From NCBI GenBank assembly GCA_902635515.1, contig CACPOD010000003.1:1-33668 (forward strand): a stretch of DNA of 33,668 bases. Direction: 5' to 3'. The notes below the pieces were generated by a model. It was given only the letters and a program-made list of their open reading frames with translations, was not told the DNA's origin and did not search any database. Below are positions 11,259-11,968 of this stretch, piece after piece. The number at the start of each line of letters is the position of its first letter. Positions within the stretch are counted from its first letter, which is position 1. Position numbers and translations under genes: made by a program. The stretch is from an uncultured Pelagibacteraceae bacterium. Its GTDB lineage: Bacteria; Pseudomonadota; Alphaproteobacteria; Pelagibacterales; Pelagibacteraceae.

Positions 11259-11639
11259 ATGGAAGACAGACCTTTATCACCACACATACAGATTTATAAA
11301 TGGCATATTTCTTCATTAGTATCTATTTCACACAGGATTACAGGAATAATTAATTTTTTTGCGATCACATTAATTTGTATTTGGTTTGCATTAATGCTTT
11401 TAGGAGAAAGTAATTATCAAATTATTAAAATTTTTTTAGAAACTTTTTTAGGTAAGTTTATTTTAATTGGAATAACCTGGTCATTTAGTTTTCAAATGTT
11501 AAGTGAAGTAAGACACTTGATTATGGATTTGGGTTATGGATTTGAATTACAAACAACAAAAATTACAGGTTTGTTAGTTATTTTTGGTTCGATTGTTTTA
11601 ACTATCTTAATATATTTAATTGGCAGAGGATTAACATAA
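11259..11639 (+). CDS. sdhC: succinate dehydrogenase cytochrome b556 subunit (SdhC), heme ligand His replaced
   Basis: Membrane anchor subunit of complex II, 126 residues, with three predicted helices (about 28-48, 62-82 and 102-122). The N-terminus RPLSPHIQIYKW and the quinone-site segment with Ser22, His25 and Arg26 (equivalent to E. coli Ser27, His30, Arg31) are kept. The second signature reads QMLSEVRHLIMDLG. His86 corresponds to E. coli His91, but the position seven residues earlier, the heme b ligand His84 in E. coli, is Gln79, and the usual Gly/Ala before the Arg region is Glu83. It therefore departs from the normal H-x(3)-[GA]-x-R-H motif. It shares TAATG with sdhD. The family call is firm; cytochrome function is doubtful. 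Confidence 0.93.
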   Translation: MEDRPLSPHIQIYKWHISSLVSISHRITGIINFFAITLICIWFALMLLGESNYQIIKIFLETFLGKFILIGITWSFSFQMLSEVRHLIMDLGYGFELQTTKITGLLVIFGSIVLTILIYLIGRGLT

Positions 11640-11968
11640 TGCTTCCAGTAACAAAAAAATGGTTATTCTTAAAAATTAGTTCCGCAATCTTATTACCTTT
11701 AATGCTTTGGTTTATTATAAATTTAGTGAATATCTATGATAAAAGTTATTTTGAAATAGTGAATTTTTTAACAACACAACCATCTAAATTCTTAATTGGA
11801 TTATTTTTAGTTATTGCTTATTTTTTTTCAGCTTTGACTATAAGTGAGGTTTTTGAAGACTATATTAACGATAAAAAAACCAAAAATGCCGCAAACAAAG
11901 TCCTAAATTTTTTTGCTATAACAATTCCAGTAATTACAATAATTGTAATTTTTAACTTAAATACATGA
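11639..11968 (+). CDS. sdhD: succinate dehydrogenase membrane anchor subunit (SdhD) without histidines
   Basis: Second hydrophobic anchor of complex II, 109 residues, with three predicted helices (about 12-34, 51-72 and 87-107). It is identified mainly by position between sdhC and sdhA and by the SEVFEDYI segment, in which Asp74 and Tyr75 match the quinone-site Asp82/Tyr83 of E. coli SdhD. The helix-II position of the heme ligand (E. coli His71) is Phe63, and the whole protein contains no histidine, so it cannot supply an axial His to heme b. The start overlaps the sdhC stop (TAATG), and the end overlaps sdhA by four bases. Confidence 0.88.
   Translation: MLPVTKKWLFLKISSAILLPLMLWFIINLVNIYDKSYFEIVNFLTTQPSKFLIGLFLVIAYFFSALTISEVFEDYINDKKTKNAANKVLNFFAITIPVITIIVIFNLNT

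Follow-up and report, generated by a model that had tools for sequence, protein, structure and literature searches.

A type-C succinate dehydrogenase of SAR11 bacteria with a dismantled heme b site, predicted to assemble and work without heme

The succinate dehydrogenase operon of an uncultured Pelagibacteraceae bacterium raises the question of whether complex II can lose both of the histidines that ligate heme b in its membrane anchors and still be a working enzyme, and, if so, what fills the vacated site. What the heme of complex II does is a long-standing question, and its role is called highly ambiguous in passages of PMC3290573. The window, i.e. the whole stretch of 33,668 nucleotides analysed here (contig CACPOD010000003.1 of assembly GCA_902635515.1), carries the four genes listed below.

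11259-11639, + strand: sdhC, cytochrome-b-type large membrane anchor, 126 aa (TIGR02970, 127.8 bits against a cut-off of 52.3; PF01127, 94.8 bits)
11639-11968, + strand: sdhD, small membrane anchor, 109 aa (TIGR02968, 46.4 bits against a cut-off of 41.8)
11965-13740, + strand: sdhA, flavoprotein with intact domains, 591 aa (TIGR01816, 962.2 bits)
13740-14519, + strand: sdhB, iron-sulfur subunit, 259 aa (NF004616, 355.9 bits)

The genes overlap head to tail, the start of sdhD sharing 1 base with the stop of sdhC, and every frame is open. All four products exceed the curated cut-offs of succinate dehydrogenase families, and those of sdhC and sdhB can be aligned to the SdhC and SdhB chains of solved structures. 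Identity as a heme-free, FrdCD-type (type D) enzyme was considered and rejected: the FrdD family PF02313 gives 15.7 bits for SdhC, below its cut-off of 25, and the Sdh anchor families are above theirs. Two proteins of the window's genome match PF01127, namely the SdhC and SdhD described here, so that a second, heme-bearing anchor pair was not seen in this assembly, which is 83 percent complete.

By Pfam and NCBIfam, the upstream neighbours are leuCDB, a DMSP demethylase with acyl-CoA enzymes and a semialdehyde dehydrogenase; the downstream neighbours are an aldehyde dehydrogenase, malate/lactate dehydrogenase, succinyl-CoA ligase subunits and 2-oxoglutarate dehydrogenase. Genes for an acyl-CoA dehydrogenase, an acyl-CoA synthetase, a hydrolase and the DMSP demethylase (NF009133, 580.5 bits) are grouped at 4972-10244, likely a cluster for DMSP use that adjoins leuCDB and the TCA cycle genes. 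Around the sdh operon, neither promoter-like matches (14, against a shuffled mean of 17.4) nor terminator-like matches (2, against 1.5) were above chance.

The residues of the heme and quinone sites in the two anchors are as follows.

11493-11495, + strand: SdhC Gln79 (codon CAA), at the heme-ligand position of E. coli SdhC His84
11825-11827, + strand: SdhD Phe63 (codon TTT), at the heme-ligand position of E. coli SdhD His71
11505-11507, + strand: SdhC Glu83 (codon GAA), four residues after the ligand (ligand+4), a glycine in His/His enzymes
11837-11839, + strand: SdhD Thr67, ligand+4, a glycine in His/His enzymes (E. coli Gly75)
11514-11516, + strand: SdhC His86, kept (E. coli His91)
11672-11674, + strand: SdhD Lys12 (E. 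coli Arg20, a propionate contact), predicted partner of SdhC Glu83
11322-11336, + strand: SdhC SISHR, Ser22 to Arg26, with the quinone-site Ser and Arg kept
11858-11863, + strand: SdhD Asp74-Tyr75 of the quinone site, kept

The sequence-only reading had placed Gln79 and Phe63 at both heme-ligand positions, and every residue that it named was verified. Histidines occur in SdhC only at positions 9, 16, 25 and 86, and the residue check bears out its statement that SdhD has none. Its quinone-site residues are indeed kept as well, including Trp184-Trp185 of SdhB, which also retains His228, the histidine of an RCHT motif; counted from the end of the match to 1nek_B (258 on 237), Trp185 corresponds to 164 and His228 to 207. 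SdhA and SdhB are intact, in line with its view of them as functional.

The ligand positions were set by comparison of sequences, profiles and structures. SdhD alone found no match in a PDB search at E up to 10 and was matched by a 12-row profile. Foldseek with an SdhD model gave weak E-values (best 0.026), and the placement of SdhD thus rests on the full-length VIA alignment. With regard to class, the enzyme has SdhA and SdhB of the succinate dehydrogenase families, two small three-helix anchors and the quinone-site Ser/Arg of SdhC, Asp/Tyr of SdhD and Trp/His of SdhB, as in type C; the one axial heme ligand per anchor is absent.

To place the window's enzyme among its relatives, we read the positions of E. 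coli SdhC 84 and SdhD 71 across SAR11 and other alphaproteobacteria. SdhC was read at 280 loci, and at 279 of these SdhD as well. The loci were taken from 30 of 52, 30 of 46 and 30 of 40 matched genomes and from 80 of 580 matches, with the best-scoring preferred, which leaves genera g7, g8 and g9 of family f2 with few loci read or none; further samples comprised 110 of 190 class matches and 40 of 157 phylum matches. Excluded from the counts are four repeat genomes (L001, L002, L033, L063) and two loci in which SdhD was not found (L165, L305); L288 (same genome as L261) and L105 (same organism as L028) are still counted, and further named loci may duplicate others. Kinship codes and record titles assign 159 loci to SAR11, with L093 and L105 placed by SdhA, and the 118 non-SAR11 loci are made up of 110 class loci and 8 named records. 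No TIGR02970 match was obtained for 41 of the 231 genomes of the class and 42 of the 199 of the phylum.

Of the 159 SAR11 loci, 15 have His/His (SdhC/SdhD), 30 have Tyr/His, and the other 114 no longer have the normal ligand pair. The 114 ligand-loss loci consist of Gln/Phe (53), Gln/Tyr (12), Gln/Asn (1), Gln/His (2), His/Phe (45) and His/Asn (1); apart from the 30 Tyr/His loci, both ligands are thus gone in 66 of the 159, that of SdhD only in 46 and that of SdhC only in 2. By genus, with repeats included, Gln/Phe or Gln/Tyr is found in all 21 loci read in the window's own genus g1, and in the sister genus g5 His/Phe accounts for 29 of 31 locus entries (30 genomes) and Gln/Phe for the other 2. 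His/His is kept in all 5 loci of g2, g3 and g4 and in both loci of g7 of family f2, and Tyr/His in all 31 of g6 of the same family; HIMB114 (L105) and SCGC AAA028-D10 (L093) are further SAR11 relatives with His/His. Outside SAR11, His/His is found in 114 of 118 loci and then in 63 of 63 more (23 of family f123 and 40 of other classes of the phylum); a 64th locus of this second set has the SdhC His, and its SdhD was not found. The loss of the ligand pair is a trait of the SAR11 clade beyond chance, and departures from His/His elsewhere are rare (4 of 118, 0 of 63). A protein database search with the window's SdhC scored 8000 candidates; in the best 120 of these, Gln is joined by Glu at ligand+4 in 119 and His by the same Glu in 1, and all are near relatives, making this set unsuited as a broad survey.

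The loss of the ligands is accompanied by the loss of the pocket glycines. In His/His loci, the residue at ligand+4 is Gly in 129 of 129 SdhC and 127 of 129 SdhD, and both anchors have it in 63 of 63 loci of the second non-SAR11 set. In the SAR11 ligand-loss loci, the SdhC position is Glu in all 114, and the SdhD position is Thr (61), Ser (50) or Asn (3). Phe is also enriched at two positions: it occupies SdhC ligand-3 in 103 of 110 distinct ligand-loss rows vs 36 of 128 distinct His/His rows, and SdhD ligand-7 in 100 of 110 vs 42 of 128. On well-supported branches, two independent pairs link glycine to ligand, which is too few for a sign test. With both ligand histidines and both pocket glycines gone, a heme-free working enzyme is predicted. 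We conclude, with a probability of roughly 0.85, that the product of sdhCDAB is a complex II of type C in which the heme b site has been taken apart, its place being likely occupied by direct protein contacts of SdhC with SdhD, and that it is predicted to assemble without heme and to transfer electrons from succinate to ubiquinone.

Several loci depart from the common pattern. The two exceptions at the SdhD glycine, L097 and L100, are His/His SAR11 loci in which Ser has already replaced it, possibly an intermediate state. The close SAR11 relatives L140, L164, L142 and L114 all have Glu at SdhC ligand+4 but differ at the SdhD ligand position, where His, Asn, Phe and Tyr occur, as would suit a site freed from heme; L140 and L164 combine SdhC Gln and Glu yet have, still or again, the SdhD His, which counts against the heme-free reading. 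The g6 loci of family f2 (L032, L063-L092) show a distinct pocket at every locus read, with SdhC Tyr and Cys at ligand+4 (30 of 30 in the counted set) and SdhD His with its Gly kept, a pocket that may or may not retain heme. Beyond SAR11, six genomes have Tyr at the SdhC ligand position (L196, L197, L201, L202, L347 and L348, of families f58, f77, f101 and f123; L347 and L348 were read by eye from motif spacing and are counted only among these six). All six carry Glu at SdhD ligand+4, as heme-free yeast complex II does; their SdhC ligand+4 residues are Ser, Gly, Glu, Thr, Gly and Glu, in that order, the pocket glycine being retained in two (L197, L347), and the SdhD His is kept in five, L202 having Val. 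The SdhC-Tyr state is confined to L197 among the f123 genomes read and is present in 3 of 3 of f101.

It could be argued that heme b is still bound through other ligands, such as SdhC His25, His86 or Gln79, or a new Met or Cys, perhaps in a high-spin or loosely held form. His25 and His86 of SdhC are in fact retained, SdhD Met22 (105 of 110 distinct ligand-loss rows) and SdhC Cys40 (99 of 110) are new, nearly fixed and potentially metal-binding, and a 2001 paper cited in PMC13066397 reportedly found, to judge by its title, that single heme-ligand mutants of E. coli Sdh can retain heme. The histidines, however, are about equally conserved in enzymes with the normal pair: His9, His86 and His25 are present in 110, 110 and 108 of the 110 distinct ligand-loss rows and in 127, 122 and 120 of the 128 His/His rows. 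Other roles are described for two of them in passages of PMC3290573, where a propionate is contacted by SdhC His91, the E. coli equivalent of His86, and the heme is shielded by His30. These three, along with His16, had been named by the sequence-only reading as candidate substitutes, and the alignment of the 110 rows revealed no new universal histidine in either SdhC or SdhD, nor any conserved one in SdhD, which has no His at all in 55 of them. Going by E. coli numbering alone, Cys40 and Met22 are some two turns of helix away from the residues that passages of PMC3290573 name as heme contacts. The pocket glycines have given way to Glu in SdhC and to Thr, Ser or Asn in SdhD at all 114 ligand-loss loci, which also speaks against a bound heme. 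We thus regard heme binding through other ligands as improbable.

A far less probable explanation is that the anchors are degenerate and that quinone is poorly reduced by this complex II. According to passages of PMC3290573, isolated E. coli Sdh is stabilized by its heme and works at lower rates once the heme is lost; earlier work cited there, a precedent for a working heme-free enzyme, describes an E. coli variant without heme that has about half the activity and supported growth on succinate. Against degeneration, the frames are open in the loci read, the operon stands among TCA cycle genes, and the four checked quinone-site residues of the anchors, SdhC Ser22 and Arg26 and SdhD Asp74 and Tyr75, are invariant in every group. 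For pairs with dN above 0.02 and dS between 0.2 and 1.2, the Gln group has a median dN/dS of 0.22 (SdhC) and 0.27 (SdhD), and the His/Phe group one of 0.17 and 0.19; the His/His rows give 0.47 and 0.59, at mixed depths, so that the comparison with the other groups is not to be pressed. The anchors evolve under purifying selection.

We therefore return to a heme-free, working complex II, the proposal of the sequence-only reading, which the comparison strongly supports through the lost ligands and glycines, the lack of a new universal His, the invariant quinone site and the Gly-to-Glu change that yeast shares. Electrons would pass from FAD through the 2Fe-2S, 4Fe-4S and 3Fe-4S clusters to ubiquinone as in E. 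coli, in which the heme is off the direct path. In the vacated pocket, the carboxylate of SdhC Glu83 may stand in for a heme propionate and, judging from its position, pair with SdhD Lys12. The joinable chain ends of SdhC and SdhD lie on opposite sides of the membrane. Position 12 of SdhD is Lys in 107 of 110 distinct ligand-loss rows and Arg in 119 of 128 distinct His/His rows; since 7 of the 128 have Lys and 3 of the 110 have Arg, the pairing is not strict. Passages of PMC3290573 name SdhC Arg31 and SdhD Arg20 as the E. coli contacts of the two propionates, related to each other by the pseudo-two-fold axis. Yeast complex II has been solved without heme (PDB 9QDL/9QDM); as given in passages of PMC13066397, Tyr108 stands where the SdhD His would be, and four residues further along Glu112 takes the place of a glycine and forms a salt bridge with SdhC Arg97 that substitutes for the heme-propionate contact. 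Glu83-Lys12 would be the pseudo-two-fold mirror image of this bridge between Sdh3 Arg97 and Sdh4 Glu112, and we infer such mirroring as the simplest reading of the alignment.

The order of events was approached by quick trees from a short search, built on SdhA, which is independent of the anchors. All 28 included ligand-loss rows fall in one well-supported clade, together with the His/His SAR11 loci L097, L100 and L107, and in a smaller SdhA tree made without these three, 16 ligand-loss rows form one clade; the Tyr/His loci of g6 stand apart, beside the His/His g7. Groups for the AU tests were chosen after the tree had been seen. Constraining the 28 ligand-loss rows together was not rejected (AU p 0.38), so that a single origin of the loss fits, though it is not demonstrated. 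The 21 Gln rows constrained together were rejected (AU p 0.0008), implying that the SdhC His-to-Gln change most simply had two origins, one in g1 and one in L060/L061; alternatively, Gln was gained once and later reverted to His. The tree, and the His/Phe pairs of g5 with their glycines already changed, suggest a stepwise loss in which the SdhD His and both glycines would have gone before the SdhC His. Loss of the second ligand after that of SdhD fits a histidine that had lost its partner.

As to why the heme was lost, the odds appear evenly balanced that neutral drift or simpler assembly, rather than iron saving, was the cause, with packing-restoring side chains fixed afterwards; the saving of iron and porphyrin suggested by the sequence-only reading finds no support in the form given there. 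The E. coli heme, off the electron path, is described as dispensable in passages of PMC3290573. A ferrochelatase was found in the window's genome and in 15 of the 21 genus members searched, among them all 3 with a completeness of 90 percent or more, and the loss of the heme site is hence not a loss of heme supply. Heme accounts for one of the ten iron atoms in the complex, and in an AT-rich genome single base changes suffice, as both His to Gln and His to Tyr to Phe proceed by single-base steps. The SdhD site also varies between Phe, Tyr, Asn and His inside the clade. On the other side, the fixation of SdhC Glu83 in 114 of 114 loci points to selection, for compensation and not for iron saving as such, and the SAR11 relatives HIMB114 and SCGC AAA028-D10, of coastal and freshwater habitats, keep His/His, which would fit an advantage in the open ocean.

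The sequence-only reading knew of no earlier description of a complex II of this kind. Heme-free complex II is in fact known in yeast, Tetrahymena and Perkinsus, as related in passages of PMC13066397, and to that extent the novelty does not stand; for bacterial type-C enzymes, no description of natural ligand loss was found in the literature on SAR11, Pelagibacter or alphaproteobacterial complex II heme, subscription papers being mostly outside the scope of the search. We give about an even chance to the broader proposal that heme has been lost repeatedly from bacterial complex II by one trick, in which a pocket glycine gives way to a residue that takes over the propionate's salt bridge: the main SAR11 group on SdhC, mirroring yeast, with f2 (SdhC Tyr and Cys) and four alphaproteobacterial families (SdhC Tyr and SdhD Glu, six genomes) having their own versions. 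If true, the heme of complex II would be an optional scaffold, dispensed with by one of the largest bacterial groups of the ocean, and the heme and iron needs of SAR11 would be counted differently. One bacterial order holds a natural series of His/His, His/Phe, Gln/Phe and Tyr/His enzymes with matching packing changes, and swaps of these natural anchors could test the role of heme in rate, stability and oxygen radicals. An automatically assigned name like cytochrome b556 subunit should not be taken to mean that the protein is a cytochrome.

Compared with known systems, the SAR11 enzyme shares with E. coli SdhCDAB the gene order, an ungapped SdhD register and the quinone-site residues; the differences are the ligands His84/His71, SdhD Gly75, SdhD Arg20 and the bound heme b, all on the E. 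coli side. With the type-D E. coli FrdABCD it has in common two anchors and, by prediction, the heme-free state, whereas its anchors score as SdhC and SdhD, not as FrdC and FrdD. The likeness to Tetrahymena and Perkinsus, known here by description only, lies in a membrane domain reported to be heme-free; the difference is that their complex II is described as divergent within supercomplexes (passages of PMC13066397). The closest parallel in the pocket is offered by Saccharomyces cerevisiae: four subunits, a type-C fold, an intact quinone site, a lost ligand His, a pocket glycine turned to Glu at ligand+4, and Phe at SdhC ligand-3 and SdhD ligand-7 (Phe153 and Phe101 in yeast, Phe76 and Phe56 in SAR11), five extra-phenylalanine positions being listed for yeast in passages of PMC13066397. 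The placement of yeast Lys73 against SAR11 Lys12 is uncertain, as the alignment gives a range only. Yeast has lost only the SdhD His, to Tyr with the SdhC His kept, and bears its Glu on SdhD, whereas the window's enzyme has lost both, to SdhC Gln and SdhD Phe, and has Thr67 at SdhD ligand+4 and its Glu, Glu83, on SdhC.
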